A stretch of DNA of 64,000 nt from Cylindrotheca closterium (taxonomy: Eukaryota; Bacillariophyta; Bacillariophyceae; Bacillariales; Bacillariaceae). The DNA lies in contig CAKOGP040002314.1 of NCBI GenBank assembly GCA_933822405.4, positions 1-64,000 on the forward strand, given 5' to 3'. This document shows, one piece after another, positions 747-53,071 of this stretch. The translations under genes were made by a program, and so were the position numbers. Numbering within the stretch: the first letter of the stretch is position 1; every line of letters starts with the position of its first letter. The notes under the pieces were generated by a model that had not been told where the DNA came from, did no database searches, and was given only the letters and a program-made list of their open reading frames with translations.

Positions 747-3700
747 CTACTGGCAATGGCAGCAAACATCAGCCGCTGTTTCAAAAAGGAAACCAAGAAC
801 AAAATTGATACAAGTGAGCGAACTAAAGAAAGATTCATCCGAGGAAAACTTTTGGAAAATACTTACCATTGCAAGGTTTGGTACCAATCTTACACGAGCC
901 GCCATAGGTTGTTGGGTGCTGACATGTTTGGTCGTATTGATTGTACCAATTGCAACCGTCTTGTGAATTGTCTTTGAATGTGGGATCGTCTACACAGCCA
1001 GGAGTTCCAAGGCATACGCAACAGGAGTCCCTCGCTGGATGAAACAGGAGTAAGAATCAATCAATCATGTTAGATATCAAAGAAAGGTCAAATTATGATC
1101 GGAACTGTGAGTAAGAAACGTACCAAAGCATTCACCAATGTCGTCACAAGTCCCCGGATACGAAGTTCCGAAGTTTGGGCACCCTGACAGTGTATTATTA
1201 GAGGGATGAGCTGTGAGCCACGAATTTTTGAACAAACGTCCGAATCCAGCGGGAAAATGGTACTTACCAGGAGCGTCGGCGTTTATGTACCAAGAGCAAG
1301 GGTCCCCACCACTGTCACTGAATGATGTATCCTCTAGAGTATACACAGAACATTACAAAAAGGAAGAAAAACATTGGAACGGTGAGTGAGTCGTCGATCG
1401 ATCGATTGATATTGATTTGATATTTCTTGCTTATCAATTAATTGATACGTACCTGTGAAACCAGCTGGACAACTGCTGGGTGAAGGAGTGCCTGGACTAA
1501 CAGTATATGGATTTTCGGCCCATGGATTGTAGGAATATGCATAGGTGGGTGACGGGTCAGAGCTGAAACTATTGGTCAGAAAGGGTGTTGGAAAGGGTGT
1601 TGGTTGCGGAATAAAAACTGGCTGTGGAGTAGGATCAGGATTTGGTTGGGGAGTAGGAAATGGCGTTGGTTCGCGTGTAGGTCCAGGCGTTGGACGGGGA
1701 GTAGGTTCTGGTGTTGCCTGTTCCGTTGGGCCAGGTGTGGGATTCGGCGTTGGTTGTTCCGTTGGGCCAGGTGTCGGTGGTACAGTTGGGCCAGGTGTCG
1801 GTGGTACAGTTGGGCCAGGTGAGGGCTTTTTGGTAGGCACACCTGTAGGAGCCAGGGAAGGCACCATGGTGGGCTTCGCACTAGGAGCTATAGAGGGAAC
1901 TTGAGTGGGGCTGAGACTTGGCGATGTAGTGGGGTCCAAGCCTACAGTCTGCCTGAATTCAATATCGCCAAAGATCTCTGGATTTAACTTGAAAATATTG
2001 ACAAACAACTTGCGGTGGTGTCGTTGTTCTTCAGTCTCGTTATCCAACGTCAATTGCCGGTTGCCAGCATTCCGATCTAGCTCTTCCAGCGATTGCAGTA
2101 CTTGCGCAATCAATGTAATCACATCAAATCCTCTTTCCTCACCCTTCAAGAAGAGTTCCATGACAACTTTGACATTGTTGCATCCGTTCCTTTTGATTTC
2201 ACAATCGGCCGAGACATCTCTGGCAGGATTAATTTGCGAGTTCGCATTGGCGATCACGTAACGAATCTGGGAATCAACTGTTTGCAGTGCTCGTAACGAT
2301 GTTTCTGTTACTGTTTCTTGTTCCAATGTAGTAGTAGTGGACTGCTTCTTTCGCAATCCTGCAGTCTGAGCTACTAGTCCTCTTCGGGTGGTGCTGATAG
2401 GACAACCAGCCAAAGCTGGAATCAAGATTTGATCCACACCTCTCTTGAAGGCAGGAACCCAAGTTTCGGTCAACAAGATGGGATCTTTAATGGTGATATC
2501 AAATTCCATTCGAAAAGGCGAAGTATCCAAATCTTCTTGCCCTTGGACGGGGAGTCCACTTCCGATTCGGACACAATCCTCGATGCTCGGTGGATCGTAG
2601 GTATCAATAGTTGGAGAGCTGGATGGCCCCTCTGTAGCCACGACCATTGTGGGCGCTGGTGTTTGTATGGTGGAAGGTGCCGTTGGAGCCGTCGTGTTTT
2701 GTTCGCGGGGAATGCTTGCAGGTACCACAGCCGCAGCATCTTCGGATTGTGACAAGAAATATCCAGCGACGCCTCCAGCAGCAGCAATAAAGAGGAAGAT
2801 CAGAATGCAAACGTTTCGTTGTTTCTTCTTCTTTCGCAAATTCTCCAACCGTTTTCGTTCATGCTCTTCTGCCTCCTTCTGTGCTGCGACTCTTCGTTCC
2901 TCCGCTTGGTTGTGGTTGTTTGCAACGGGTGCAATCATTTGTTCCATTCGGTCTGCCAATGCTCTGTTTTGTTCTTCCAATGTTCTCATGCGCTCGTTTT
3001 CTTCAGCTTCTTCATCGATTGCCACGGCTTCGACAGCCACTTCACCATCCTCTCCAATGGCTGCTTCCGGTGTATTATCTGCCTTCGGCTCGGCAGCAGG
3101 CTCAGCGGGAGCGTTGTTCTCATAATCCAGCTTGACATTTTGCAAGTTCTTCTTGTTATCTGCAGCTCTGGATGTCGATGCACCAGGGCGTCCTTGTATC
3201 TTTTGTTTTCTCTTGAGATCGTCATCGCCTCGGCTGTCTGCCATTTGAGCTCCAGGAGCAATGCGTCCTCCGGAACGCTCTTCTTTGGCCCGACGCTTTG
3301 CTTCTTGATCTCTGGATCCCCTTGAGGCCGCTGAATCAGCCACTGAACCAGGTCGGCTTCTGCCACTGGAACTTGTTCGTCCTTCCTTGGCACGACGTTT
3401 GGCTTCTTGCTCGTCCTGGGTACGACGAGACATGCGTTCTTCCTTTGTCAGGGGAGCCGCTGGCAAAGAAGATCCTCCACCAGAGGGACGCTTGGAGGCC
3501 GAGGAATCTGCCACGGATGAAGCTCCTGGTGCGGCGGGTGAAGCACCCTCTCGTCTTCCGCGGCGTTTGGCTTCGGCGTCTCGCTCACGGTCGCTAATCC
3601 GACGTTCGGTACGAGCCTGCTTGTCCTTGTCGTCTGCTTCTTTGCCTTCAACACCAGCAGTGCGACTTCTGCTGCGGTGATCCTTGTCACCCTTGTCACG

Positions 3701-4051
3701 GTCACTGCGATGCCTGTCGCTGCGGTGACGATCGCTGCGATGGCTCTTGTCATCGTCCTTAAGCTTACCGTCACTCCGGCTTCGACCGCCACTACGATGA
3801 TGATGTCGATCACGATCACCACTGCGGTGTTCTCGATCACGGTCACGGTCTTTGCGATCACCACCACGTCGTTCTCTGTGGCTTCCAGAACGAGGCACAT
3901 GGGGACGACTGCTTCTGCTGCCACTGCTTCTTGGTGACTTGTGTCTGTCACTCTTTGAGCGTTCACCAGCTTCTGGGGTTTTCGGAGTTTTGGGAGCATC
4001 GTCAACCTTTTTCTTTTCCTCGGTTTGAAGAGTTTCAGGAGTGTCTGCCAT
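747..4051 (-). CDS. family member A: single-pass membrane protein, P-T-S stalk, two Cys-rich C-x-W-Y modules
   Basis: Five exons: 4051-1453, 1333-1268, 1183-1124, 1034-867 and 775-747, all with GT-AG ends; they sum to 973 codons plus stop. I chose the start MADTPETLQ; the frame stays open to an ATG at 4204. Residues about 20-330 are basic and rich in RS, RD and RH, with AKRR..EGR..APG repeats. A Glu-rich, coiled-coil-like segment follows, then a membrane helix at about 412-436 beginning RNVCILIFLF. The ectodomain (about 485-700) holds the family's four Cys and the motif ELFLKGEERGFDVITLI. A P-T-S stalk follows. Exons 2-5 encode two copies of a module with GDPCSWY / GCPNFG / CCVC and GCNWY / CCHC. 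Basic residues before the helix predict an inside N-terminus. This is a paralogue of B and, more distantly, of C-F. Function unknown; a cell-surface or silica-vesicle role is only inference. Confidence 0.75.
1583..1915 (-). repeat. P-T-S stalk coding repeat of member A
   Basis: Degenerate 12-30 bp tandem units encode PGPTVPPT / PGPTEQPTP / PTPGPT-type repeats. The antisense strand therefore reads as a Gly-Val repeat, which is not a gene. Confidence 0.7.
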
Positions 4052-4698
4052 CTTGCTCTTGTAAGTTAATGCTTTACAGTACTTATAATACTTGATACGC
4101 TTCAACCTCTTCTTCTCCAACTGTAGGGATCGTGCAAAATTGGCAGATGTGAGGTCAAAACTGAACACAGATGTGAGGTCATTCAAAAATTTGGATCCAG
4201 ACATTTAATCTCCCATTCTACGCGAGTTGTACGAACGATTTTGTACTGTATCGGACCTGGTACCGGTACCTGGTACCAATTTTGAAAGACGATGTGAAGA
4301 ACACAAAGTTCGGTCCTGTACACGTACAAAGTCCTACAGTACTGTAGTTACAGATGGACAATATTTTTCGCAAGGACATAAGCATGAGCGGAAGTCGAAT
4401 TTAGGAATTTTCCGTTGTGCCGACCATATATAATCATTCAGAACCGTTTCTTAAATAAGTTTCTTTGAGGCATCTCAGTATTTCATTCACGAACCACAGT
4501 CCAGTCCAATGATTGATTCGATTCACACAACTGCTGTAAGAATAGAAGACTGCACACTCTATATCATCACAGCTGATAGAAAGTAATAAGTACTCAAATC
4601 TACTGCATTGTAGGATCTACTACAAACTCCAACAACAATATTAGAACTGCACAATTTGGGTTTCTATACACTAGCTGTCAGGTCCAGATATAATTTTT
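4052..4698. other. intergenic between A and B with a GTAC-rich palindromic cluster
   Basis: This spacer holds the promoter of A (minus strand) and the 3' region of B. At 4258-4284 there is a run of overlapping GGTACC/TACCGGTA palindromes. A TATATAA-type string lies at about 4427-4433, and the segment directly upstream of the A start is AT-rich. No gene is visible here. Confidence 0.4.
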
Positions 4699-7660
4699 TT
4701 AATTGTTGGCATATTCTTCTTGGTTGCAAAAGCAGCATGCATCATACGCTGTGAGTACACCAAGAGAGCAATAAGCAAAAATAAATCAGATGTGAGGACG
4801 ACATGTGCATCGTTTCGGTTTCGGATCTTTCTAGCAAACCACAGCGAGGAAACTTACGATAACAAAATCCAATTGGTTTGGAGCATGGAGTAAACGAATC
4901 AAATCCATAGTTTGGGCAACCTTTTTCATCATTCGCTTGGTACCAATAACACCCTCGACCCTTGTCGTCTTTCCAGGTTTCGTCGTCTGTCAAGAAAATT
5001 GTTGGCAAATATTGAAAGAGAGGAATGAGTGGATGGGCGAGAATATAGATGATTCATTCAAGGCCGAGGTGAGCGTCCGGAAAAAGACAGCTAGCGGTGG
5101 TGACTCGCATGAATTGAAGGAATCAATCAATCAGTTTCTTCTTACCTGTACACGCCTTGGGCGTTGCCAAAGTCGCAAGCTTCCTCTCGCGGAATCCAGG
5201 ACTGTAGGGATCCTCGTAGGATGGTCCACTATAAGGATCATAGGGTGGTCCTCCATAAGGATCATATGATGGTCCTCCATAAGGATCATATGATGGTCCT
5301 CCGTATGGATCATGAGATGGTCCTCCATAAGGATCGTAGGATGGTTCTCCATAAGGATCATACGAAGGTCCTCCGCCGTATGGATCATATGATGGTCCCC
5401 CATAAGGATCATAGGATGGTGCAGGTACTGGAGATAGACTTGGACGAGGCTCTGGAGCTAAACTTGGGCGAGGCTCTGGAGCGGATGTCGGGCCCGGTGT
5501 TGGTGAAGGTGTTGGGCCGAGAGTAGGGGCAGGAGTCGGACGGGGACTAGGACCAGATGTTGGCCGTTCGGTTGGACCAGGTGTGGGCTTGGTAGAGGGC
5601 GTCCCGCTGGGTCCTGACGTTGGGAATTGTGTTGGCTCATTGGATGGAGCGATAGATGGAACTCTAGAGGGCACAATACTAGGAACCCAAGAGGGCACAA
5701 TACTAGGAACCATTGAAGGCACTTGACTGGGACTGATACTTGGCAATGTTGTTGGATCAACGTTTTCAATACCTCGATAGCCGACAGCTTCAAATATATC
5801 TGGGTCCAAGCCAAGGATGTTCGCCAACAATCTTCGATGGTGTTCCTGGCCATGGCCGCTTTCCAATTCTCTTCGGTTGTCATTGTTGTCTTGTGCTGCC
5901 AAGGACGCTAAAATTTGTGCAATCAAAGCGATAATGTCAAATCCTTTTTCTTCGCCCTTCAAGAAGAGTTGCATCAATACTTTTACATTGTTGCAGCCTG
6001 ATTGTGTCACGGCACAATCGGCAGTAACATCTCTGCTGGGATCAATGGAAGTCTCCATATTGGCAATAACGTAGCGAATGGCTGAATCCACATCCACATC
6101 TACTAGATCGGGTTCCCATGTCTGTTCCACCAAAGTGGAGGACATTTTTCGAAGTCGTGGTTGTGCCTCCTCCAAGTCATCCTTTCCACCAAGTTGCAAT
6201 CGTCTTCTTGAAATATCACATCCTACCATGGCTGGTACCAATATATTGTCCACGCCCTCCTTGAATTGAGGAACCCAAACATCGGTTGACATGCCTGGAT
6301 CCTTGACAGTGATATCAAACGCAATTTGAAATGGTCGGTCCTCAAATTGCTCTTGGTGATCGATAGGGAGCCCACTTTTGATTCGGAAACAGTCCTCCTC
6401 ACTGGGAGCTTTGTAAGCTTGAATGGTGGGCGCACTCGAAGGCTCCTCTTCAGGAACATTGCTGGTAACTGGAGGTTGGCTTTCGACCACTGATACCATT
6501 GGAGCTGCTGTAGTTTTGTCGTTATTTGTCGAATCTTCACTGCCAGTGGTTTCAACAGGAGTAGTAGCGCCGCTGGACTTTTGACTCAAGAGGTATCCAG
6601 CAACACCACTGACAATGGCAAGAACCAAAACGACCAAGATGCAAATGTTGCGTTTTTTAGTTTTGGCTTTTTTAGCTCTTAGTCTTTGTACTTCTTGCTC
6701 TTCGGCCTCCTTATCTTTATCTGCAACTTGGCCGGCTTCGCCGTTCCTTGCCACCAACTGTTCCACTCGTTGGGCAAGAGCCCTATTTTGCTCTTGCAGT
6801 GCCTTCATCCGTTCAATTTCTTCGGCTTCTTCATCGATGGCAGTTGCTTCGACGGCGACTTTGCCATCATCGCCCATGGCTGCAGTGGCAACTGGTTCCA
6901 CAGTCTTGGAAGGCTCTGAATCCAAACTCTTTGCATGATGAGCTGAATGGGACCTAGATGCTCCATTGTGCCTTTGCTGCTTGTTTTTGCGCCGAACTTC
7001 AGTCGGGTCTCTGTTCGAGGAGGACATAACTCCAGGGGCAGCTGGTCCTCTCGAACGACCTTCCTGGGTCCGACGCTTGGCATCGCGATCTCTTGACTCT
7101 CTTGTCGCTGTGCATGCAGCATTTCGACTTCTGTCATGAACTGATCTTCCTTCCTTGGCGCGGCGCTTGGCATCTTGTTCTTCTCTTGCCCGACGGGACA
7201 TGCGTTCTTCCTTGGTCAAAGCAGATAAGTCTCCCGAACAATTTCTGTCGTCTGCGTGACGTTTGTCATTTTCACGGCGATCTTTGACTGCGACCACTCC
7301 CATGGTAGTGGCACCAGGAGCAGCCGAAGGCTCCTTGCGACCTCCGCGTGTTCGGCGTTTGGCTTCTCGGTCACGGTGTTCAGGGCGAGTCGGAGATCGA
7401 GAGCCATCTGTGGAACGGTCCCTGCTAGCATGAGACTCTTTCGAACGATGAGAGTCTCTAGAATGATCTCGAGACCTGGAACGTGTACCGCGAGAGTCAT
7501 TCGAACGATGCCGAGACTCTCTAGAATGGTCGCGGGAAGAGTCTCTGGAATGGAAATCGCCTCCTTGTCTGTGTTTGCGTTGTCGAGGACGACGAGTGCT
7601 TGGACTTTTGAGGTCCTCTTCAGTAGCCGCGACATCGGGCTTGGAAGGTTTCTTGTCCAT
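4699..7660 (-). CDS. family member B: single-pass membrane protein with PSYDPYGG repeats and one C-x-W-Y module
   Basis: Three exons: 7660-5146, 4986-4858 and 4748-4699; they total 898 codons including TAA. I chose the start MDKKPSKPD; an in-frame ATG at 7726 would add 22 residues. Layout matches A: an Arg/Ser/Asp/His-rich N-terminus, DAKRRAKEGR-type repeats, a coiled-coil-like Glu segment (EEIERMKALQEQNRAL), and a membrane helix at about 335-358 (RNICILVVLVLAIVSG). The ectodomain (about 420-635) includes DCFRIKSGLP, VGCDISRRR and QLFLKGEEKGFDIIALI. The stalk is P-T-S-rich and is followed by eight or nine PSYDPYGG repeats unique to this member. The final two exons encode DDETWKDDKG, GCYWY, GCPNYG and DACCFC. 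All its introns are phase 1. Function unknown. Confidence 0.75.
5211..5421 (-). repeat. tandem repeat encoding PSYDPYGG
   Basis: Eight or nine copies of a 24-27 bp unit (GGTCCTCCATAAGGATCAT on the plus strand) encode Pro-Ser-Tyr-Asp-Pro-Tyr-Gly-Gly in member B, with single-residue variants (SHDPYGG, PPYDPYSG). None of the other family members has it. Confidence 0.85.
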
Positions 7661-8371
7661 GGTGGTGAGAGTGATTTCGAAGTTGGGTGTTGCTGTCGGA
7701 GGCACTTGCTGTGATTTGTGTGACAAGTTAGTTTTTCTTTTATATATCTCGTATCGTATGATCTTGTATCTGTTTCAAAAGCTTGGTTGGTGAACCTGTG
7801 ACCCAGCACAAGGCGTCAACACTGCATGGGTGTTTTGAAACTTATGGGAAGGGTATCTTATGAGTCACATTTGTTAAGTGTCATTGACTTTTTTAATTTT
7901 AAAAAAGAGAGATCTCCTGGAGAAAGAGATCGAATGAATCAATCAATCAATCATTGCGGAAGCTAACATAACATCGTTAGTTTACAACAACACAAGACAC
8001 TCACACTCACTGCATTGCTTGATCATACCTATTCTGATCAGTTTAGGGACATACCGGTATTGCAGGGTATCTTTTATGACTCAATAAGTGTGATGAAGAG
8101 GGTTTCTTCAGGTACCTACGGCACAGTCTACCAGTATTATTTTGTGGACTGAAGATTCACGCAATGACGGAAAGACAACCATCTGGACTTTGATCATCGG
8201 TACCGTACAGTACAGTAGGTACTGGTACGGGTAGATGTAAGTTGTCCGATCTTTTTATCGACCCTGTGTGGAGTGCCTGGTACCAGTACACCATATCTCG
8301 ATCATTCAAAATTCGTGTAAAAATGTACTTCAAAGAATAGATTACAATATGCAACAAGAACTATGCGTAGC
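7661..8371. other. intergenic upstream of B; GTAC clusters and AATC tract
   Basis: This 0.7-kb spacer holds the B promoter and the 3' flank of the cyclase gene. An (AATC)n tract lies at 7932-7954. GGTACC/GTACAGTAC-type clusters lie at about 8110-8116, 8200-8235 and 8277-8292. I see no coding-like frame. Confidence 0.4.
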
Positions 8372-34800: not shown

Positions 34801-35010
34801 CTATTTAAGGACTCAGCGGTTGCCGATATCGATGAATGTTACAATTTGTGCCTCTCAACCCCAGATTGCATTGCGTTCTCCATTGGCATTGGTAGAAATT
34901 GTGGAACACTGAACTGCATGGGTTGCAAAAGTACCAGTACAGTTGAATTTGAAACGGGGTTCACTGTTTTTATGCGATGGACTAGAGTACTTTTTCACGA
35001 ATACCAATGA
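31855..35010 (+). CDS. family member C: Lys-rich repeat, membrane helix, ectodomain, P-T-S stalk, PAN-like module
   Basis: A single exon of 1051 residues from MRSQPTGSH. Residues about 35-145 are Ser/Arg/His-rich. Then come seven or eight diverged 35-45-residue repeats built on LYGxDADAKAKAKASRG ... NPGVxxV. A membrane helix (about 553-575, KKRICFFLLVLLFIGGG) follows. The ectodomain (about 630-787) has the family Cys: SDCIAI, LAGCNIF, EEKCQ and RNCHL, and the motif LDLFLKGNVKFLDIIRLI. A stalk of PSxxPT repeats leads to a final 85-residue module (CPYQHP ... DIDECYNLCLSTPDCIAFSIG ... NCMGC) like a PAN/apple domain. Basic residues before the helix predict cytosolic repeats and an external C-terminus. 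It is the most diverged of C-F. Function unknown. Confidence 0.78.
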   Translation: MRSQPTGSHAPDLKNKQNEEAVVIGGIESGDSKLNDKHRSSSSRRHSDERKSRRSSLEKGTSKKASYRSSSDRPPRNSGGASSRPSHGSNSKRRSSRHKHSSSSRRRLSKESSHRRSDKERGHYSRPSTYRSPLHSNESDEVVDTLYGKDNANDNKEKEKSSRGRSERAVNPGVEHISGKPSTADKDTKEKTKSARRSPKGASEPGVEHFSNSGSLATTTLYGDDDVDAKKAKAKVSRHDSEYTTSVPGVQQVPSDNISTKQSDTISTLYGKNESDAKAKAKASRSSSSEYASYPGADRVFSPSSNSIWEKAKASRQLVTPSTHTSNTKTDSTMTTLYGEDADAKAKARASRGSSEFGTNPGAKTVSLFTESSHSTTSTLYGSDADTKAKAKAFGGNGEYASNPGVQSVHTASNRDLAGSTSDNSVNITLYGNDAGTKNKARAALRSSAHCTNPGVESIARRLTMTSLTDSVGSMMAPDEQGENGFEAPVARRVSIGTTDSESSNSVPEHGMRSEAVDAVRLPNDLEASPRYGETSAKRVVDKTQKSRKKRICFFLLVLLFIGGGVVAWYFLSKNEGSESDDSQISSVNISDPTSAPSSQAVVSLDPIGTPGAENATTSPSGLTPINMVYERPSKSDCIAISLNQTIAGREEMENVDFGLDLEVVVVDDIIITEQLVQELLNAIQEKILPSLAGCNIFLDEVVESWRFVIFDAFVNGNVQREEKCQDGTLSARNCHLIFVELDLFLKGNVKFLDIIRLIGNEEENFSNHLGLSDQFLVVKMIRAESLTPTAAPTTMPSHVPSFTPSTFPTVQASANPTFLPSLSPTRIVSGQPTRSPTLTPSSQPSFVPSTALPSSDPSLSPSKVLSNSPSTRPSETPSSSPSSRPTVDPSVRPTNVPSAAPSVTPSVMASKSPTKSPSASPSGMPTRKPSSAPSTQPTSSPSKEPTRGPSAFPSSLPSVEPTGSYRLSATDRKCPYQHPDRLFKDSAVADIDECYNLCLSTPDCIAFSIGIGRNCGTLNCMGCKSTSTVEFETGFTVFMRWTRVLFHEYQ

Positions 35011-35287
35011 CTAGTTTCTACCGGGTACATACGGTAGTATTTTGGTCTTGATACATTGGGTATGTTCATTACTCGTAGGTCGGTTTTTTGGGTTTAGAAA
35101 TATATATATATTGATAATTAAAAAACTAGCGTAATATATAAAATATATATAAATAATAGTTGCACTGTATCATACAGCATGAAATTGGGTTGGGCTTTTT
35201 CGCTATGATCAGCTAGCCGCTAAGCTGCGGTTTCTGGTCTTGAACCCGATACCAGTACCATCATTCTATCAAGGCAGATCACCTGCA
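35011..35287. other. intergenic spacer with AT-rich block
   Basis: Between C and D. 35097-35158 is almost pure A/T, built on ATATATA, ending in AAATATATATAAATAATAG. A GGGTACATACGGTA element lies near 35024. No gene is seen. Confidence 0.5.
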
Positions 35288-38200: not shown

Positions 38201-39022
38201 AGTCCAAGTTCACGTCCAAGTATGGCACCAATTGTGGGTCCTACACCACCCCCAACAAAAAGTCCCACAAAAATTCCAACGGAGAGTCCAAGTTCACGTC
38301 CAAGTATGGCACCAGTTGTTGGTCCCACGCCACCCCCAACGAGAAGTCCAACAAAAAATCCAACGGAGAGTCCAAGTTCACGTCCAAGTATGGCACCAGT
38401 TGTGGGTCCCACACCACCCCCAACGAAAAACCCAACAAAATTCCCAACTGTTAGTCCAAGCCCGCGTCCAAGTATGACACCAGTTGTGGGTCCTACACCA
38501 CCCCCAACGAAAAGCCCGACAAAAAGTCCAACTTTGCTCCCAAGTACTATGCCAAGCGCACGACCAACTCCCTTTCCCACGGCGAGACCCAGTGCGACGC
38601 CGACCAAATTGCCCACGAAATCACCGACCAAAACGCCCACGAAAAATCCAAGTGCTTCTCCTTCAAGCAGGCCTAGTAGCAGACCAAGCAGCTCGCCATC
38701 AGCGCGGCCAACTTCTTCGCCCAGTGCAAAGCCTTCGAGCAGTCCCAGTGTAGGTCCGTCAGCGTTACCAAGTCCAGTACCAATTATTACCTATACGCAG
38801 CTTGCGAAAAACGAAAATTGCCCTGTGGGCAACGCCAATTATTTGAGCACGGTTGGAGGTCTTGCTGATGAAGACGAATGTGCCAAAGAGTGTTTCTACA
38901 CGTCAGGCTGTGTCGTGTTCGTAGTTGGGAAAACTAGAGGCCAGTTAGACTGTTACTTGTGCAATGGCGGTGGCAACTTGGTGCAGGATGGTGGTACAAC
39001 TGCATATTCATTGACTACATAG
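35288..39022 (+). CDS. family member D
   Basis: A single exon of 1244 residues; the start MSSPQSVQGITIDDLPSK matches that of E. An Arg/Ser-rich region carries repeated SSxGKSDDSDRMSSLSSHGKE units, followed by five LYGxDxDAKAKAKASRG...PGVxxV repeats (about 375-590). A KKKKRRRRG stop precedes a Cys-rich membrane helix (about 651-675, FCLCCCLLLLLIAGG). The ectodomain (about 734-888) has ESNCDAIAKNETIAGRDEL, IAGCNIRADEFVEAWRF, DEACTN, GQNCHR and DVFLKGFVRFLDIIRLI. A long P-T-S stalk includes four 28-residue repeats, then a PAN-like end (NCPVGN ... DECAKECFYTSGCVVF ... CYLC). From 37220 to past the stop it is nearly identical to E; upstream it is clearly diverged. Confidence 0.8.
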   Translation: MSSPQSVQGITIDDLPSKSAAIDDNLDFKGSSHSKKSSRRKHRRGRPSQKSHRRSSSDELALSRSSHEKSDDSEWMSSLSSHGKERRSKKRSGLSRSSYGNSDDSDRMSSLSSHGKESSPRKLSLSSRSSQGKTDDSDRMSSLSSHGKESSSPKSRSSRYTSHDKRDSLRRSSSYRKSKPERASSMRGSTAGLSQSPRPRLKRSSSTKSLTQPSPKNKNKNDILSLSVHEIGSVGRLSHASPRRRVSNDDRSPGGPSLKKNKSERTSSSHSSSQSRRHDGGGLSRHRSSREKRDSGDHGPSRRSSNGASDRKPSSRSPRNGSRRNDPERGHSSRRNMKSDNVDSLLNVGTMSVLTEGTNEESSRHHRRTATDALYRFDADSKAKAKSTRGNAQSPSLPGVQQVFSSSATVATNMSSATTSTLYGNDEDAKAKAKASRGGLPPATVPGVQTVCSPSDTTVATNMTSATTSTLYGNDADAKAKAKASIGNSQFATMPGVETVFSSGASMFSGTSTTTTSTLYGSDTDAKAKTKASRGSSLYASKPGVESVSVVASVGGESTSSNAIGTLYGSDADAKAKARAGRGGSTYAANLGVSRATLPAAMEPVAEGVNEKDGEGRTASESGSIIEPESNDDDDSNVVQENDDKKKKRRRRGIGFCLCCCLLLLLIAGGIGVWFVLFRDDGSGQDSQINTSGIQDLSTAPSSQPSTFFAPGPSMNVPGSPTGAPVLEEIIFEPPSESNCDAIAKNETIAGRDELDNADFGLSLEVVLSENTTMTRSLVDDLLIAIQEKILPSIAGCNIRADEFVEAWRFVIFDAFASGNAMPDEACTNSDLVGQNCHRVNVQLDVFLKGFVRFLDIIRLISEEELNLANNLELSEPFSIIQLVAIDSLTPTNAPTIMSSDAPSSSPSKGPTSMPTSLPTGSPSKSPTQMPTVPGQTRVPSVEPSLAPSASPTATTVPTALLVVPTAFPTESPSSRPSMAPIVGPTPPPTKSPTKIPTESPSSRPSMAPVVGPTPPPTRSPTKNPTESPSSRPSMAPVVGPTPPPTKNPTKFPTVSPSPRPSMTPVVGPTPPPTKSPTKSPTLLPSTMPSARPTPFPTARPSATPTKLPTKSPTKTPTKNPSASPSSRPSSRPSSSPSARPTSSPSAKPSSSPSVGPSALPSPVPIITYTQLAKNENCPVGNANYLSTVGGLADEDECAKECFYTSGCVVFVVGKTRGQLDCYLCNGGGNLVQDGGTTAYSLTT

Positions 39023-39068: not shown

Positions 39069-39214
39069 GAAAGGTATTGTAACAGTATTATTCTAATAAA
39101 ATATAAGCGAATGATGTCAGGAGAAATTGGATTGAATAGGCAGAAACTCCAAATGAATTATGGCTACCCTGGATCTATCGGATGCACTTTTGATTATAGT
39201 GTGGTCGCGGTCGA
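39023..39214. other. 3' flank of member D
   Basis: It resembles the 3' flank of E more weakly beyond 39068 (shared pieces such as TTATTCTAA..AAATATAAG and GGATTGAATAGG). This suggests the older duplication reached further than the recent one. Confidence 0.45.
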
Positions 39215-39998
39215 CTCTTGAAACCGAAGACCCGACCGACGATGATGCCAAGCTCTTTACCGATTGGATTGTCGACTGAGTTTGCGACCAAGGAAGTATC
39301 TTGGAATCCTAGACCAAGTCCTTCGTGCCTCATATGCAAATGCACTTATTTCAACGACGCCGAATGTAATGCCTTCCTAGTCCCCGACTCCGATGGTAGC
39401 AACATAACTATTTTTGCACAAAGTGCTTCGCCACCAACACCACTAGTTCCCATATAAACGGCTCTTCCTTCGTCGAAGCCGTCTGCACATACCAGCGGAG
39501 AGCCCAAGTAAGTGCCCGAATACTACTCCTGTTCAAACTCCCAATGGAACGCCCAAATGCACAACCGATTCCTTTTCCATTGGTGGTCCCTCCTGGACCC
39601 CCTTCGCTACTCCCAGTATCATGGGTAGCAAGAACTCAACGACAAAAAGAAGCATACTGAGTGATCAATCAGCTCTCCGTCCAGGGGGGCAGGCTCATTG
39701 ATGAGCTAGCTGCTATCGAAGGACCCTGTTGCACAACCATCGACGTTGCAAACTGAAGAGCCAGCTGTCTCCATTTGCAGAGAACCGAAAGTACCCCTCC
39801 GTTACCCAGCTCGTCGGAATAATATCGAAGATGTAGATGAGTGTTTCAACGGTTGTATCAACAATTCAGTTGCCTCGAATTCTTTGCTGGAAGTTTCCTC
39901 ACCTTCGGTCGGATTGAGAGGACTGTCACCTTTGCAAGAGCAGCGGAAACTTTCAACGACAAAGAAATGGCATCAATACGTATAAAGTGACTCCGTAG
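39215..39998 (+). pseudogene. decayed copy of the C-F family (stalk and PAN-like end)
   Basis: Broken by stops and frameshifts. One frame reads KPKTRPTMMPSSLPIG and ends SASPPTPLVPI; a second, from about 39508, reads PNTTPVQTPNGTPK and SIMGSKNSTTKRSI, like SVMASKSPTKSPS in C. A third, at about 39746-39985, has CREPKVPLRYPARR and NIEDVDECFNGCINNS, matching DIDECYNLCLSTPDC in C. The last codons, INTYKVTP then TAG, fit the closing residues IVYQLNP of F. The helix, ectodomain and N-terminal half are gone. I have not rebuilt an intact frame. Confidence 0.6.
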
Positions 39999-40473
39999 AG
40001 TTGCATTATTCAACGCTGTCGAATAGGAGATCCCTGAATGAATACGTTGTTTCAAAACGGGAAGCAATTGCGACAGGTACCAAGAGTTTTTATCCAAAAT
40101 GTGGGTATTTTTTCATCAGCTAGAAGCTTGCTAAAAGTGTCGGGAAGTTTATCTCCGAAGTCACGGCGACCACAAAATGTCTCAATAAAACTTCCTCGTT
40201 TTTTTTCTCGATTCGTTCGCTCTTTAGCCACTTTTGTGTGGTCTTGTTTGGTAGGTTTTGATAAATGTTTGATAAAAATGACTCTATGTACCGGGAACTC
40301 TACGAAAACATACATACTGTAGTCATCATTGGTAAACTTACCTCTACAGAGTCGGATTGCTGTGTCACTGGATTTCGCTGCTACCTATGCAAACTTCAAA
40401 GCTATTTGGAAATTATACTGTCGGCTGTATATGATAGTAGGTGCAGTGCATCAAACAAACACGGTAACCTGCA
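39999..40473. other. intergenic upstream of member E
   Basis: Promoter region of E; AT-rich, no gene. The few bases before the ATG (ACCTGCA) match those before the D start, but the rest does not. Confidence 0.4.
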
Positions 40474-43400
40474 ATGAGTAGCCCACAAAGTGTTGAAGGA
40501 ATCGCTATGGATGACCTTCCTTCCAAACCAGCAGCAATTGATCATGACGATGAACTTCGAGGTTCATCTCATTCGACTGGGAATAAGAAATATGATCGAT
40601 CTTCGCCTAGACGAGGGAGATCAAGCCGAAAGTCTCACAGAAGGAGCAGTTCTGATGAGCTGGCATCAAGCCGCTCTTCGTATGGTAATGGCGATGATTC
40701 AGATCGGATGTCCAGTCTCTCGTCACATGGGAAAGGAAGCAGCAGCCCGAAGACGCAATCGACATTAAGCCGCTCTTCGCGTGGTAATGGCGATGATTCA
40801 GATCGGATGTCCAGTCTGTCTTCGCATGGGAACGAAAGCAGATCGAGAAAGCTATCTTTTTCGAGCCGCTCTTCATCTCGTGACAAATGCGACGGCTTAC
40901 GGTCTTCTTCGCATAGAAAGAGCAAACCTGAACGTACGTCAAATTCGTTTGGAAGTACTGATTCTAAAAGCCAGTCTCCCCGTCCTCGTATGAAGAGGAG
41001 CAGTTCGACAAGGGTATCAAGTAGATCTTCTTCTCGAAGCTCAGGAGTCGTAAGTCAGTCTCCTCGTCCGCGAAGGAGCAATTCAGATAGGTTACCATCT
41101 CGATCTTCTTCGAATAGCAAAATTGAACGCTTGAATCTGTCTGAAAATATGACGGACAATACTGAAAGTATATCACGTCACTCTCCTCGGCGCCGAAGGA
41201 GCACCGATGATGGTTCGCCAAGCCGGCCATCTTTAGAGAAAAGCAAATCGGATCGAGTGTCAGCAAGGCGCCATTCCTCACAAGAAAGGCGAGGCAGTAG
41301 CGATGGAGCACCAAGGCGGTCTTCGAGTGGCGGTTCGGATAGAAAACACAAAATCCGCTCGCCTAGAAAGGGTGGAAGGCGCAGCACCGAACGTGACAAC
41401 TCAAACAGTGAAATTCGAAGAAATTTGAAAACCGATAACATGGACAGCCTGTTGAATGTTGGAACCATGAGTATTCTCACAGAAGGTACTAACGAAGAAA
41501 GTTCACGTCACCAAAGAAGCATAGCAACTGATGCGCTGTACGGATTGGACGCAGATTCCAAGGCTAAGGCAAAAGCATCCAAAGGAAATGCGCAGTCACC
41601 CAGTGTACCAGGTGTGCAACAAGTATTCAGTTCATCTGCCACTGTGGCTACCAATATGACTAGTGCAACCACCAGTACGCTCTATGGAAATGCCGATGAT
41701 GATGCCAAGACGAAAGCAAAAGCGTCCAGAGGTGGTCTACAGCCACCAATCGTACCAGGAGTGCAGACTGTGTACAGCCCATCAGATGCCACCGTGGCTA
41801 GCGGTAGGAGTACTGCAACCACCAGTACACTCTACGGAAGTGATGCAGATGCCAAGGCCAAGGCAAAAGCGTCGAGAGGAAATTCTCAGTTTGCTACAAT
41901 GCCAGGAGTACAGACTGTGTCTAGTTCAGGTGCCACTGTGGCCAGCAGCATGAGCAGCGCAACCACAGCTACGCTCTATGGACACGATGAGGATGCCAAG
42001 ACAAAGGCGAAGGCTTCCAGAGGAAGTTCTCAATACGCAAGCAATCCAGGTGTGGAGAGCGTCAATATGGTGGCTTCTGTTGGAGGCGAAAGTGCCTCCA
42101 GTACTGCAACCACCGCTACACTATATGGAAGTGATGCAGACGCCAAAGCGAAGGCAAGAGCTGGTCGAGGTGGCTCGACATGTGCAGCAAATCCGGGTGT
42201 GGAAAGGGTGGCCGTTGCGGCAGCAATGGCACCTGTGGCTGAAAACGAGAATGAAAACGAGAATGAGGATAACGAGGAAGAGAAAGATGGAGAAGATCCT
42301 GTTGCAAGTCGAGTGCCAATGGTGGCAACAGATTCCGAGTCCGGTAGTATTGAAGATGCGGAGAGGAGTGCAGCGTCGGAGAACGGTGAGAAGAAGAACA
42401 CAGACGACGAAAAGAAGAAGAAAAGAAGGAGGAGGGGGGTTGGCTTTTGCTTGTGCTGCTGCTTGTTACTATTGCTCATTGCAGGGGGGATTGGTGTCTG
42501 GTTCGTTCTGTTTCGAGATGACGGTAGTGGCCAAGATAGTCAAATCAACACTTCTGGTATCCAAGATCTATCCACTGCACCCTCGTCGCAACCTTCAACA
42601 TTCTTTGCTCCGGGTCCGTCGATGAATGTGCCCGGTTCGCCTACTGGCGCGCCAGTCTTGGAAGAAATTATATTCGAGCCTCCCAGCGAATCAAATTGCG
42701 ATGCCATTGCCAAGAACGAAACCATCGCCGGACGAGATGAGCTGGACAATGCTGATTTTGGCCTGAGTTTGGAAGTCGTGTTGTCGGAGAATACCACCAT
42801 GACAAGATCATTGGTGGACGACTTGTTGATCGCAATTCAAGAGAAAATTCTTCCTTCCATCGCTGGTTGCAATATTCGTGCGGACGAATTTGTAGAGGCC
42901 TGGCGTTTTGTCATCTTCGACGCCTTTGCAAGTGGCAATGCTATGCCCGACGAAGCGTGCACCAATAGTGATTTGGTAGGGCAGAACTGCCATCGGGTGA
43001 ATGTTCAATTAGACGTGTTCCTGAAAGGGTTTGTAAGGTTTCTTGACATTATTCGACTGATCAGTGAAGAGGAGTTGAACCTTGCGAATAATCTGGAGTT
43101 GTCGGAACCATTTTCGATCATTCAACTGGTTGCGATCGACAGCTTGACCCCAACAAATGCGCCGACAATCATGTCAAGCGATGCACCAAGTTCTTCGCCA
43201 TCGAAAGGTCCGACATCAATGCCGACTTCTCTTCCGACAGGATCACCTTCAAAGTCTCCGACACAAATGCCGACTGTACCGGGTCAGACACGTGTGCCAA
43301 GCGTAGAACCATCATTAGCACCAAGCGCTTCTCCAACCGCCACAACAGTACCTACAGCGTTGCTTGTTGTGCCGACAGCTTTTCCAACGGAGAGTCCAAG

Positions 43401-44274
43401 TTCACGTCCAAGTATGGCACCAATTGTGGGTCCTACACCACCCCCAACAAAAAGTCCCACAAAAATTCCAACGGAGAGTCCAAGTTCACGTCCAAGTATG
43501 GCACCAGTTGTTGGTCCCACGCCACCCCCAACGAGAAGTCCAACAAAAAATCCAACGGAGAGTCCAAGTTCACGTCCAAGTATGGCACCAGTTGTGGGTC
43601 CCACACCACCCCCAACGAAAAACCCAACAAAATTCCCAACTGTTAGTCCAAGTGCGCGTCCAACTCCACCCCCAACGAAAAACCCAACAAAATTCCCAAC
43701 TGTTAGTCCAAGCCCGCGTCCAAGTATGACACCAGTTGTGGGTCCTACACCACCCCCAACGAAAAGCCCGACAAAAAGTCCAACTTTGCTCCCAAGTACT
43801 ATGCCAAGCGCACGACCAACTCCCTTTCCCACGGCGAGACCCAGTGCGACGCCGACCAAATTGCCCACGAAATCACCGACCAAAACGCCCACGAAAAATC
43901 CAAGTGCTTCTCCTTCAAGCAGGCCTAGTAGCAGACCAAGCAGCTCGCCATCAGCGCGGCCAACTTCTTCGCCCAGTGCAAAGCCTTCGAGCAGTCCCAG
44001 TGTAGGTCCGTCAGCGTTACCAAGTCCAGTACCAATTATTACCTATACGCAGCTTGCGAAAAACGAAAATTGCCCTGTGGGCAACGCCAATTATTTGAGC
44101 ACGGTTGGAGGTCTTGCTGATGAAGACGAATGTGCCAAAGAGTGTTTCTACACGTCAGGCTGTGTCGTGTTCGTAGTTGGGAAAACTAGAGGCCAGATAG
44201 ACTGTTACTTGTGCAATGGCAGTGGCAACTTGGTGCAGGATGGTGGTACAACTGCATATTCATTGACTACATAG
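40474..44274 (+). CDS. family member E
   Basis: A single exon of 1266 residues, starting MSSPQSVEGIAMDDLPSK. Same plan as D: Arg/Ser-rich region with DDSDRMSSLSSHG repeats; five LYGxDADAKAKAKASRG...PGVxxV repeats (about 350-580); an acidic Asn-Glu run (ENENENENEDNEEEKDGE) absent from D; then KKKKRRRRG and a Cys-rich helix (about 653-679). Ectodomain, stalk and PAN-like end follow. From 42412 onward it is nearly the same DNA as D, apart from a 60-bp insertion in the stalk (about 43650-43709) that duplicates ARPTPPPTKNPTKFPTVSPS. Topology and unknown function are as for C and D. Confidence 0.8.
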   Translation: MSSPQSVEGIAMDDLPSKPAAIDHDDELRGSSHSTGNKKYDRSSPRRGRSSRKSHRRSSSDELASSRSSYGNGDDSDRMSSLSSHGKGSSSPKTQSTLSRSSRGNGDDSDRMSSLSSHGNESRSRKLSFSSRSSSRDKCDGLRSSSHRKSKPERTSNSFGSTDSKSQSPRPRMKRSSSTRVSSRSSSRSSGVVSQSPRPRRSNSDRLPSRSSSNSKIERLNLSENMTDNTESISRHSPRRRRSTDDGSPSRPSLEKSKSDRVSARRHSSQERRGSSDGAPRRSSSGGSDRKHKIRSPRKGGRRSTERDNSNSEIRRNLKTDNMDSLLNVGTMSILTEGTNEESSRHQRSIATDALYGLDADSKAKAKASKGNAQSPSVPGVQQVFSSSATVATNMTSATTSTLYGNADDDAKTKAKASRGGLQPPIVPGVQTVYSPSDATVASGRSTATTSTLYGSDADAKAKAKASRGNSQFATMPGVQTVSSSGATVASSMSSATTATLYGHDEDAKTKAKASRGSSQYASNPGVESVNMVASVGGESASSTATTATLYGSDADAKAKARAGRGGSTCAANPGVERVAVAAAMAPVAENENENENEDNEEEKDGEDPVASRVPMVATDSESGSIEDAERSAASENGEKKNTDDEKKKKRRRRGVGFCLCCCLLLLLIAGGIGVWFVLFRDDGSGQDSQINTSGIQDLSTAPSSQPSTFFAPGPSMNVPGSPTGAPVLEEIIFEPPSESNCDAIAKNETIAGRDELDNADFGLSLEVVLSENTTMTRSLVDDLLIAIQEKILPSIAGCNIRADEFVEAWRFVIFDAFASGNAMPDEACTNSDLVGQNCHRVNVQLDVFLKGFVRFLDIIRLISEEELNLANNLELSEPFSIIQLVAIDSLTPTNAPTIMSSDAPSSSPSKGPTSMPTSLPTGSPSKSPTQMPTVPGQTRVPSVEPSLAPSASPTATTVPTALLVVPTAFPTESPSSRPSMAPIVGPTPPPTKSPTKIPTESPSSRPSMAPVVGPTPPPTRSPTKNPTESPSSRPSMAPVVGPTPPPTKNPTKFPTVSPSARPTPPPTKNPTKFPTVSPSPRPSMTPVVGPTPPPTKSPTKSPTLLPSTMPSARPTPFPTARPSATPTKLPTKSPTKTPTKNPSASPSSRPSSRPSSSPSARPTSSPSAKPSSSPSVGPSALPSPVPIITYTQLAKNENCPVGNANYLSTVGGLADEDECAKECFYTSGCVVFVVGKTRGQIDCYLCNGSGNLVQDGGTTAYSLTT

Positions 44275-44320: not shown

Positions 44321-44680
44321 AATGAAAGTGATTGTTTGGGAATTTGATCCATGTTGATAATTCGGCTTCGTCATTCGACAAAGCCTTCATTTTCTCCTAC
44401 ATGTTTGTTGTAACATTGTTATTCTAACAAATTATAAGTGAATCACATCGGGAGAATTGGGATTGAATAGGTAGACCTTTTATACGGATGATGAGGAGTA
44501 TCTTGACATTAGGTGCTTGATAGATCGACCCTATATGAATGATATGATAGATCTACCGTATCGCATCATGATATCAACAATGGTTGATTAAAATTGATTC
44601 ATTCGACCGTTTTCCAGAAGTCCAACGAGTCGATACCTTGCTGCTTGTAGAAGAGGAATCGCAATGAATCCCAAACAACG
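44275..44680. other. intergenic between E and THOC2
   Basis: Begins with the E 3' UTR. ATTGATTCATTCG lies at 44593-44605, shortly before the THOC2 gene. No separate gene is seen; a short upstream ATG at 44664 opens a six-codon frame only. Confidence 0.35.
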
Positions 44681-49285: not shown

Positions 49286-52200
49286 CTAAGGATTCAACTG
49301 ATACACGATAAAATCGGTGCTCGTGGTCAAAGGTGCATTGTCGTTGCACCCCCCACAGTTTACCCCGCTATTGCTTTCACTGTAGGAGAACTTGGAACAT
49401 CCTGCAGCGTTGACGCACAAGTCAAAGCATTCCTCCAAGCTTGAAATTGCTCTGACACTGAAAAAAGTATCACGACCGCCTTGGGGACACCTTGAACCTT
49501 CTGCTAGTACAACAAAGGAGACAGTTTGCACGATTGGTGAAGTAGATGGAGAAGAACTTGGTTTTGAAGAGGGTGATGTACTTGGTCTCTTCGTTGGCGC
49601 TTCGGTTGGTCTCTTAGTAGGTGGTTTTGTTGGAGCAGCACTTGGTGTTTTTGTTGGTGATTTGCTCGGTGTGGCACTAGGTCTCACCGTGGGAAAGGGA
49701 GTTGGCCGTGGGCTCGGCATAGCACTTGGGAATACAGTTGGACTTTTTGATGGGTTTTTCGTTGGGGGTGGCGTCGGACCCACAACCGGTGCATTACTCG
49801 GACGCGCACTTGGACTCACAGTTGGGAATTTTGTTGGGTTTTTCGTTGGGGGCGGTGTAGGACCCACAACCGGTGCCATGCTTGGAAGCGTACTTGGACT
49901 CTCCGTTGGATTTTTTGTTGGACTTTTTGTTGGACTTTTTGTTGGGGGTGGTGTAGGATCCACAATTGGTGCCATACTTGGACGTGAACTTGGACCCTCT
50001 GTTGGAAAAGCCGTTGGCACAACAAGCAACGCTGTAGGTACTGTTGTGGCGGTTGGAGAAGCGCTTGGTGCTAATGATGGTTCTACGCTTGGCACACGTG
50101 TCTGACCCGGTACAGTCGGCATTTGTGTTGGAGACTTTGAAGGTGATCTTGTCGGAAGAGAAGTCGGCATTGATGTCGGACCTTTCGATGGCGAGGAACT
50201 TGGTGCATCGCTTGGCATGGTTGTCGGAGCATTCGTTGGGGTCAAGCTGTCGATCTCAACCAGTTGAATGATCGAAAATGGATCAGACAACTCCAGATTA
50301 TTCGCGATGTTTACCTCTTCATCACTGATCAGACGAATGATATCAAGAAACCTAACAACGCCTTTCAAGAAAACGTCCAATTGAACATTCACCCTATGAC
50401 AATTCTGCGCTACCAATTCTTCATTCTTGCACGTTTCGTCCGGCTTAGCATTGCCACTTACGAAGGCGTCGAAGATGACAAAACGCCAGGCCTCTACAAA
50501 TTCGTCCGCACGAATATTGCAACCAGCGATGGAAGGAAGAATTTTCTCTTGAATTGCAATCAACAAGTCGTCCACCAATGATCTTGTCATGGTGGTATTC
50601 TCCGACAGCACGACTTCTAAACCCAAGCCGAAATCAGCATTATCCAGCTCATCTCGTCCAGCGATGGTTTCGTTTTTGGCAATGGCATCGCAATTTGATT
50701 GGCTGGGAGGCTCGAATAGAAGTTCTTCCAAGACTGGCGCGCCAGTTGGAGAACCGGGCACACTACCCGACGGACCTGGAGCGAAGATTGTTGTAGCCTG
50801 CGACGACGGTGCTGTGGATGGATCTTGGATGCCAGAAGTGTTGATTTGACTATCTTGATCACTGCCGTCATTCCGAAAGACAAAGAACCAGACAGCTATG
50901 CCCGCACCAAGTAATAAAAAGCAGCATAACAAGCAGAAGACAACCCCCCTCCTCCTCTTTTTCTTTCCTTCTTTCTTCTCTTCTTTCTTCCTTTGGTCAT
51001 CGTTGTGGATCTGACTTTGGCCTATCGGATGGCTATCGGACTCGGAATCTGTTCCTCCGATTGACACTGGTCTTGCAACAGGTTCTTCCCCACCTTTCTC
51101 CTCATCCACATTTTCAGCCACGGGTCCCATTGCTGCCGTAAGCGCCACTCTTTCAACACCCGGGTTGGCTGCATATGTCGAGCCACCTCGTCCAGCTCTT
51201 GCCTTGGCTTTGGCGTCTGCATCACTTCCATATAGAGTCCCAACAGCACTACTGGAGGTACTTTCGCCTCCAACAGAAGCCGCCATACTGACGCTCTCCA
51301 CACCTGGGTTGCTTGCGTATTGAGAACTTCCTCTGGAAGCCTTCGCCTTCGCCTTGGCATCCTCGTCACCATTCCCGTAGAGCGTACTGGTGGTTGCAGC
51401 ACTCATATTGGTAGCCACGGTGGCACCACCCGAAGGACTTAACATGAAGTGTTCTAAGCTTTCCTTTGGCACCTTTGCCTTTTTCGAGACGGCGCTATAG
51501 GACGGAGTGAATTGCACTCCTGGTACGGTTGCTGGCGGGAAGCTACCTTTGGAAGCTTTCGCCTTTGCCTTTACATCCTCATCAGCATTTCCGTAGAGAG
51601 TGCTGGTAGTTGCACTGGTCATACTGGTAGCGACGGTGGCAGATGAAGGGCTGAACATAGACTCTAAGCTACCTCTCGATGATTTTGACTTTTTCCGCGA
51701 TGCTTTTGTCCTTTTTGAGGTATTGGATGGGCTTAATAAACTTGCTGGTTGTGTTTCAGGATTGATTGCGCGTTCTGAATTATCATCAGCTTCCCCATCA
51801 CTTTCGGTGAGAACAGCCATGGATCCCAAAGTGTCGGTGCTAGTCCTCTTGGCAGGTTTACTAGTCCGGTGTCGACTGCTGCTACGGCTTCTGTTGGATG
51901 TGTCAATCATGCGTTCAGCCTCCTCATCTGGGAGGATTGCGTGATCTGAATTGTCATCAGAATCATCGTCACTTTCGGTGAGAACAGCCATGGATCCCAA
52001 AGTGTCGGTGCTGGTCCTCTTGGCAGGTTTGCTACTCCGATTGCGACTGCTACTACGGTTTCTGGCGGATGCGTCCTTCATGCGTTCAACCTCCTCATCT
52101 GCCTTCATACGATCAGCCTCCACATCTGGCTGGATAGCGTTTTCTGAGTCAGCATCAGATTCTCCGTCACTGTCGATGGCACCAGCCAACGGTGCGGCAC

Positions 52201-53071
52201 TTGAGACAATCTCGGTACTAGTATCGCCCTTGGATGGTTTGCTCCTGAAATCAAGAGGTCGCGGAACTGTTCTTTTACCTCCCCTTCTAGGCGATCGGCT
52301 GCTTGATTTCTTGTCTGAGCCACCGTTGGAATAACGCCTACCATCACCACTGTGTCGTTTACCATCGCCACTGTTTCGCCTATCTCGTGACGACCGCCCA
52401 CCGTGATCTGAGCGACTCATCGAATGCCTGTCAGATTTCGATAACTTGTCAGCGCTCTTCCTTCTATCCGAGCTCGATATACCATCAGCACTATAGCTTC
52501 TATTGCGTGGTGAGCTTTTTACACGCCCAGTGCTGCTTTTCCGACGTGGAGTCAGATTCAATTCAACGTCAGCACGACGGGGTCTACTGCTGTGCCTTGA
52601 ACCACTGCGGTGTCTACTACTGTGCCTCGAACCACGATCGCCACTGGATTTTCTTGGACGAGGCGACAGACTCATCTCCTTTGAATCATCACTTGTAGCA
52701 TAATTTGAATCACGATCGGCACTGAGCTTTCTTCGACGACGTGTCGGACTCAATTCCTTAGAATCGTCACTTCTGCCATGAGAGTTTGATCGACTTTCTG
52801 CCCTTTTCTCATTGCTTTTCCTTCTGCGATTGTGGTGTGAAGACGAACGGCTCGGCGACGACTTTTTGAAATTGCTCCCACGAGGCGTCCGAGGCGACTT
52901 GCTTGATCTACCTCTGCGATTATCTGGGCTTTGCAGTTCTCGAATATTCAAGTTAGAGGGAGGGTCGTCATCAGTCGCTGCTGAATTAGAAGGGAGACCA
53001 TGCATTGTGGCTCCTTCATCTTGTCTCTTGCGCTGATCACCTGGCTCGCTTTGTTGGTTCCGTGTACTCAT
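49286..53071 (-). CDS. family member F
   Basis: A single exon of 1261 residues; start MSTRNQQSEPGDQRKRQ (an in-frame ATG at 53110 lies 13 codons upstream). A Ser/Arg-rich region is followed by two copies of a 57-residue block (KRTSTDTLGSMAVLTESD), then three LYGxxDEDAKAKAKASRG...PGV repeats. A KKRRRG stop precedes the helix (about 707-731, VVFCLLCCFLLLGAGIAVW). The ectodomain (about 790-944) is close to D/E: QSNCDAIAKNETIAGRDEL, AGCNIRADEFVEAWRF, DETCKNEELVAQNCHR and DVFLKGVVRFLDIIRLI. The P-T-S stalk has fewer 84-bp units than D/E. The end is PAN-like: RCPQGG ... SLEECFDLCVNAAGCSKFSY ... NCGGC. Its opposite strand to C-E means it was inverted or duplicated independently. Confidence 0.8.
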   Translation of the reverse strand: MSTRNQQSEPGDQRKRQDEGATMHGLPSNSAATDDDPPSNLNIRELQSPDNRRGRSSKSPRTPRGSNFKKSSPSRSSSHHNRRRKSNEKRAESRSNSHGRSDDSKELSPTRRRRKLSADRDSNYATSDDSKEMSLSPRPRKSSGDRGSRHSSRHRSGSRHSSRPRRADVELNLTPRRKSSTGRVKSSPRNRSYSADGISSSDRRKSADKLSKSDRHSMSRSDHGGRSSRDRRNSGDGKRHSGDGRRYSNGGSDKKSSSRSPRRGGKRTVPRPLDFRSKPSKGDTSTEIVSSAAPLAGAIDSDGESDADSENAIQPDVEADRMKADEEVERMKDASARNRSSSRNRSSKPAKRTSTDTLGSMAVLTESDDDSDDNSDHAILPDEEAERMIDTSNRSRSSSRHRTSKPAKRTSTDTLGSMAVLTESDGEADDNSERAINPETQPASLLSPSNTSKRTKASRKKSKSSRGSLESMFSPSSATVATSMTSATTSTLYGNADEDVKAKAKASKGSFPPATVPGVQFTPSYSAVSKKAKVPKESLEHFMLSPSGGATVATNMSAATTSTLYGNGDEDAKAKAKASRGSSQYASNPGVESVSMAASVGGESTSSSAVGTLYGSDADAKAKARAGRGGSTYAANPGVERVALTAAMGPVAENVDEEKGGEEPVARPVSIGGTDSESDSHPIGQSQIHNDDQRKKEEKKEGKKKRRRGVVFCLLCCFLLLGAGIAVWFFVFRNDGSDQDSQINTSGIQDPSTAPSSQATTIFAPGPSGSVPGSPTGAPVLEELLFEPPSQSNCDAIAKNETIAGRDELDNADFGLGLEVVLSENTTMTRSLVDDLLIAIQEKILPSIAGCNIRADEFVEAWRFVIFDAFVSGNAKPDETCKNEELVAQNCHRVNVQLDVFLKGVVRFLDIIRLISDEEVNIANNLELSDPFSIIQLVEIDSLTPTNAPTTMPSDAPSSSPSKGPTSMPTSLPTRSPSKSPTQMPTVPGQTRVPSVEPSLAPSASPTATTVPTALLVVPTAFPTEGPSSRPSMAPIVDPTPPPTKSPTKSPTKNPTESPSTLPSMAPVVGPTPPPTKNPTKFPTVSPSARPSNAPVVGPTPPPTKNPSKSPTVFPSAMPSPRPTPFPTVRPSATPSKSPTKTPSAAPTKPPTKRPTEAPTKRPSTSPSSKPSSSPSTSPIVQTVSFVVLAEGSRCPQGGRDTFFSVRAISSLEECFDLCVNAAGCSKFSYSESNSGVNCGGCNDNAPLTTSTDFIVYQLNP
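51811..52110 (-). repeat. 171-bp tandem duplication inside member F
   Basis: The block GAACAGCCATGGATCCCAAA recurs at 51811 and 51982, a period of 171 bp (57 codons). It duplicates a Ser/Arg-rich segment with KRTSTDTLGSMAVLTESD; the copies have drifted. Confidence 0.8.

Follow-up and report, generated by a model that had tools for sequence, protein, structure and literature searches.

What kind of protein is encoded by the six related genes, here called A to F, that lie in a 64,000 bp stretch of contig C552 of the raphid pennate diatom Cylindrotheca closterium (assembly of 47.6 Mb)? This stretch, at its whole length, is referred to as the window. A preliminary description had proposed a local, six-member family of single-pass membrane proteins of no recognisable function that link the cytoplasm to the cell wall, the silica vesicle or partner cells. 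As read from sequence, the size of the family, its plan, its charge asymmetry, the diversity of its tips and the exchange of blocks among its genes suggest a family spread across the genome, whose members are surface proteins that pass the membrane once in type II (N-inside) orientation and have exchangeable adhesive or recognition tips, a reading that is considered rather probable.

Six open reading frames (ORFs) with the common plan were found (Table 1). The span given for them also held: the stop codon of gene A, reached behind its tip introns and placed by eye, is at 747, and 53071 is the first ATG of gene F. Each ORF showed one strong hydrophobic stretch (Kyte-Doolittle hydropathy (KD) of 2.4-2.8) preceded by a Lys/Arg-rich stop, with other peaks of ≤1.4. 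The ectodomain behind this helix carried four Cys that were conserved in 69, 70, 66 and 65 of 70 aligned domain rows, some of which represent one gene twice. In the ectodomain, D and E were closest to each other, followed by F and then C, and A and B formed a divergent pair with 24% identity to F. Gene C corresponded to database protein P0008, and the two proteins were identical from the ATG onward. In addition, a single frame of P0004, a transcriptome protein of a relative, spanned tail, helix, ectodomain and stalk, which speaks against separate genes for these four modules; the tip lies outside the part covered by P0004.

The terms 'six-member' and 'local' proved too small. Merged matches in the own genome (expectation value (E) ≤0.001) gave at least 174 loci on 77 contigs, nine of them with internal stops, and the largest cluster among the loci listed had 15 loci (C571). 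A purely local expansion was ruled out by these ectodomain searches, as the loci were spread over many contigs. The census was merged by hand from four single-ectodomain searches, in each of which 150 of the 158 to 212 candidates were scored. It may include contigs that are alleles of each other, and in some cases a single gene may have been counted as two loci because two of its exons were matched. Searches of database proteins produced 10, 2 and 4 relatives, and the named ones were all from C. closterium or 'Bacillariaceae sp.'. An iterated hidden Markov model (HMM) of 176 columns recovered the ectodomain in 68/68 sequences (6 window ORFs, 52 loci and 10 database proteins), which came from earlier ectodomain searches. 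Two ectodomain copies were present in loci L024 and L035. No description of this architecture was found among the papers listed by the literature searches, mostly open-access papers without preprints.

For topology and tail counts, 54 members were kept and 14 of the 68 rows were dropped because of internal stops (L019, L022), a contig end (L031), near-copies (L057, L063), a partial sequence (P0009), identity with genes already present as loci or window ORFs (P0001, P0005-P0008, P0010), a frame that begins just before the ectodomain with no helix in it (L047) or a gene model with no helix (P0002). A hydrophobic helix was present upstream of the ectodomain in 54/54 members, and a second, weak hydrophobic stretch (KD 1.8-1.9) in six. 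The mean number of Lys and Arg within 20 residues of the helix was 6.9 before it vs 1.4 after it, with 53/54 members in that direction (exception L051), and 44/54 members had an N-glycosylation sequon in the ectodomain. The charge asymmetry and the sequons therefore indicate an N-inside arrangement with a cytosolic Lys/Ser-rich part, in agreement with the inside tail and the outside stalk and tip first described. Two of the dropped sequences weigh against an N-inside helix: the frame of L047 begins 14 residues before the ectodomain, and P0002, from a Bacillariaceae metagenome genome, has no helix in its gene model; both possibly reflect an exon or annotation effect. The proposed link from the cytoplasm outward fits this topology, while the silica vesicle as its target was weakened. 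Scaffold proteins for frustule building, in the silica vesicle or the cell wall, would agree with targets suggested by the preliminary description and with Lys/Ser-rich regions that may resemble those of silaffins. However, the Lys/Ser-rich part appears cytosolic and not lumenal, many tips are lectin-, LRR- (leucine-rich repeat) or DUF285-like, and such a scaffold role is very unlikely. As the outside target, the data favour neither the wall nor partner cells, bacteria or the substratum.

The tails had a median length of 368 residues, with some cut by locus ends. The Lys/Arg repeats ending in PG, as described earlier, gave 83 matches vs 0.4 in shuffled tails and were present in 37/54 members, with a pattern that was picked by eye on the same proteins in which it was counted. 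A VEAxAVD-type motif with a coiled-coil-like stretch occurred 24-41 residues before the helix in 13/54 members on several tree branches; the segment was found in 0/270 shuffled tails by a profile trained on the same tails. The string AR[KRP][VIML]S, chosen by eye, was found in the tails of 7/54 members vs 1.0 expected, in the C-F clade and its relatives. An acidic Ser stretch often follows this string before the helix, and the combination is presumably like a protein kinase A site beside CK2 sites. The excess of the string speaks for signalling receptors instead of adhesins. Ligands would then be sensed by the tips, and the signal would be relayed by the coiled coil together with a basic tail open to phosphorylation, as in LRR receptor-like proteins that have no kinase. 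The presence of LRR tips on this chassis and the mating-type bias of kinase-less transmembrane LRR proteins of Pseudo-nitzschia, as given in excerpts of PMC6261938, point the same way. On the other hand, the six window proteins and eight database relatives scanned over their whole length showed no recognised signalling domain, and neither did 48 members scanned with Pfam at E 0.01 from just before the helix onward, with the tails outside the scan. The stalk also suits mechanical display and the tails vary widely, and the receptor explanation is possible but on the unlikely side.

For the ectodomain, the statement of no recognisable function stood in part, as Pfam at E 1 gave no family covering the ectodomain of the six window proteins and PDB sequences gave no match to the ectodomain profile at E 10. 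It did not stand for the many tips that are known binding or repeat modules, or for the predicted fold, which may come closest, if weakly, to that of SEA domains. A beta-alpha-beta-beta-alpha-beta order was predicted for F (predicted local distance difference test (pLDDT) 71.1, predicted template modelling score (pTM) 0.70) and for B (66.8, 0.67), an order that is also common to other ferredoxin-like folds. The SEA profile of Pfam (PF01390) had no match over the cut-off in the six window proteins or the 48 scanned members, and its genome search produced one match (17.4 bits vs a cut-off of 26.4); this match, on contig C223, was distant from the listed loci of the family. A search of a viral structure library showed no match at E 0.001. 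SEA autocleavage occurs at a GSxxV-type string between strands 2 and 3, which is not present in all SEA members. No conserved autocleavage site was found in the 70 domain rows, where a loose GS string occurred in 6/70 and not at one conserved place.

The SEA-domain membrane mucins MUC1 and MUC16 have the plan of helix, SEA and mucin-like stalk outward, and the family may resemble them from the membrane outward with its helix, SEA-like predicted fold and mucin-like stalk. Unlike in these mucins, the chain of the family starts inside with its N-terminus, gives no match to the SEA profile, shows no cleavage string at a conserved place, contains four Cys and ends in a tip beyond the stalk. Type II transmembrane serine proteases have a cytosolic N-terminus, a helix, SEA and C-terminal modules, so that the topology and the predicted juxtamembrane SEA-like domain would be common features. 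The differences are that no peptidase family was found in the 48 members and that a Pro-Thr-Ser stalk comes after the ectodomain.

Beyond the ectodomain, the PT stalk (PF04886) was matched in 26/48 scanned members, and the tips by Pfam were DUF285 in 11, DUF7640 in 5, WSC in 2, and F5/8C, Xlink and LRR in 1 each. F5/8C (PF22633) was above the cut-off in P0007, P0014 and P0016. Reading of the chain ends by eye gave about 12 tip labels, with members that end in an intron or at a locus end left unlabelled; WY..CC, ARLCT, JR1, JR2, LINK and CTL are labels of this analysis, assigned by eye. The Cys-rich tip described for all six window genes was indeed Cys-rich in each but was not one module, being PAN-like in C-F and another Cys-rich module in A and B. 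Six invariant Cys were present in all four tips of C-F, two of which are near-copies. Tip F reached 20.9 bits with PAN_1 (cut-off 21.4) and tip C 16.4 bits with PAN_2 (21.1), the best model for tips D and E was MANEC (16.3 and 15.8 bits; cut-off 25.5), and the tips of A and B had no Pfam model at E 1. Among 59 distinct DUF285 loci listed, 33 followed a family ectodomain at a distance of ≤5 kb in the same orientation, and the remaining 26 did not; therefore, an extracellular placement at the stalk end is suggested for the subset of 33. By the same comparison, 4/10 WSC loci had a family ectodomain upstream. When diatom Pfams are ranked by how abundant their transcripts are at sea, DUF285 is the sole domain of unknown function in the top 100, according to excerpts of PMC11992049. 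Proteins that reside in the secretory pathway in type II orientation, for instance as scaffolds for glycan processing, would share the N-inside single-pass topology typical of Golgi enzymes, but no catalytic domain was over the cut-off in the scanned members and a long stalk with diverse tips makes little sense there, which leaves this explanation highly improbable. Kinship with the circumsporozoite protein, suggested by database entry names and PDB sequence matches, was rejected, as the best PDB-match stretches sit in the Pro-Thr-Ser stalk. Sub-threshold Pfam matches to CDC45, SNARE, CD1107-like, ETRAMP and FGE-sulfatase were regarded as chance or unproven.

The ectodomain tree, a quick one with several long branches, had 58 rows (51 labelled) and 17 tip-label changes, vs a minimum of 11 and a shuffled mean of 35.7; therefore, inheritance accounts for most of the tip distribution and exchange for some of it. 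The sister ectodomains L015 and P0007 (SH-like approximate likelihood ratio test (SH-aLRT) 97) carried different tips. L060, with an LRR tip, and L058, with an F5/8C tip, both on C165, had 95.7% identity over 1957 bp that ended approximately 35 bp before the stalk end, i.e., at the stalk-tip junction. Exon shuffling as the sole route of tip exchange was rejected because the point of divergence of these two loci falls within a single open frame in both. The adjacent C135 loci L005 and L007, whose tips differ, showed 86.6% identity over 981 columns. In the window, the near-identical block of D and E (Table 1) had 2 substitutions and one 60-bp repeat-unit indel by DNA alignment, and 5/591 codons differed by codon alignment, in which the repeats are placed otherwise. 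Both substitutions, at 38945 and 38969 (vs gene E), fall close together in the tip. The D and E tails were far diverged, with 107 synonymous-codon differences among 605 aligned codons, and identity dropped again beyond the stop. For F vs D, the DNA identity was 88% in helix and ectodomain and 85% in the stalk, with lower values for the tip (45%) and the tail (56%). Part of this pattern of block exchange could also arise from an assembly artefact.

The pseudogene of the preliminary description corresponds to a decayed remnant of the family. An ordinary-filter search of the window for a further family copy gave no match beyond the six genes, and with filters off, stalk-like matches at 39206-39862 did not exceed the matches to a low-complexity stretch (48314-48895) that is unrelated. 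The tip of P0002 matched two out-of-frame pieces (39740-39868 and 39921-39992) with an E of 1.7e-6, compared with 0.003 at best when the region was shuffled 20 times, and the remnant is placed between D and E because of this difference.

Table 1. Positions of family genes, their modules and related features in the window.
Feature	Positions	Strand	ORF	Helix	Ectodomain	Tail and stalk	Tip or extent
Gene A	747..4204	-	1334-4204	2756-2812	1916-2602 (HMM envelope)	Coiled-coil segment in tail; stalk	Intron-split, two WY..CC modules (tip exons and stop by eye)
Gene B	4699..7774	-	5123-7774	6590-6646	5738-6418	Coiled-coil segment in tail; stalk	One WY..CC module, intron-split (exons and stop by eye)
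Gene C	31717..35010	+		33508-33564	33739-34236	Lys/Arg repeats ending in PG; stalk	PAN-like, 34753-35007
Gene D	35183..39022	+		37265-37321	37478-37975	Stalk	PAN-like, 38768-39019
Gene E	40468..44274	+		42457-42513	42670-43167	Stalk	PAN-like, 44020-44271
Gene F	49286..53113 (ATG 53071)	-		50891-50947	50222-50719	Stalk	PAN-like, 49289-49537
Decayed family remnant	39206..40000	+				Stalk-like stretch	PAN-tip-like pieces, out of frame
D/E near-identical block	37248..39022	+					Just before helix to stop (DNA alignment)

Other genes were also identified in the window. Adjoining genes A and B at 8375-9886 (-), a cyclic-nucleotide phosphodiesterase was preceded, in the same fusion, by the end of a guanylate/adenylate cyclase domain; for a guanylate cyclase/phosphodiesterase of this kind, a Pseudo-nitzschia paper names, in the excerpts available, a homologue of the one of S. 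robusta among sex-regulated genes (PMC5485032). A THO complex subunit 2 gene (THOC2_N, Thoc2, Tho2) was present between E and F at 44651-48934 (+). Two long frames at 57101-63001 (+) matched PLU-1, the second below the cut-off, and are perhaps a single KDM5-like gene. Finally, a tandem repeat with two copies of an 82 bp unit (88% matches) was found at 63310-63477.

For surface proteins with exchangeable tips, a mechanism can be proposed. The cytosolic tail, which is disordered-looking and basic with PG-ending repeats and sometimes a juxtamembrane coiled coil, would bind a cortical partner and pair chains. The SEA-like domain, presumably held by disulfides, would form a collar on the outer side of the membrane, and the Pro-Thr-Ser stalk, probably O-glycosylated, would span the wall outward. 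The tip may bind glycans or proteins, whether these belong to bacteria, to partner cells, to the extracellular polymer or to the own wall. Tail, chassis and tip would be shuffled as blocks by ectopic recombination and gene conversion, and such blockwise shuffling would therefore give one anchor with many specificities. Yeast flocculins and parasite variant surface families likewise have a head on a Ser/Thr-rich stalk and a recombining gene family; they are likened here by plan and not by sequence, and they differ in anchoring and orientation.

Diatom adhesive-trail and GDPH/vWD proteins are likewise modular surface proteins tied to adhesion, as described in parts of PMC7335047 and PMC11420354, and the vWD/GDPH adhesives respond to bacteria in Seminavis (excerpts of PMC7335047). 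Unlike the GDPH/vWD adhesives, the family is membrane-anchored, with the GDPH string in 0/68 sequences and vWD in 0/48 members. The kinase-less transmembrane LRR proteins MRP2 and MRM2 of pennate diatoms, with a helix and LRR and no kinase found, are like the LRR-tipped subset. Excerpts of the literature present transmembrane LRR proteins of Pseudo-nitzschia without a kinase as proposed pheromone receptors or adhesion molecules (PMC6261938) and a transmembrane lectin-like family as a sex marker in four diatoms (PMC12618581). Gliding models posit a transmembrane link between actomyosin and adhesive strands, for which no molecule is named in the available parts of these sources (PMC11962607, PMC11420354, PMC13056149). 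By analogy, the literature on gliding, LRR, lectin-like and vWD/GDPH proteins fits a display role and is no proof of it for this family. It is a decidedly speculative hypothesis, and a doubtful one, that the family is the posited membrane-spanning connector of raphid diatoms, with tails that couple to raphe actomyosin and recombining tips that grip polymers, substrata, bacteria or mates. If this were true, one chassis would serve diatoms for a surface repertoire that is combinatorial and evolves fast. How diatoms discriminate bacteria, mates and surfaces would also gain a concrete system in a large surface family with swapping of tips.
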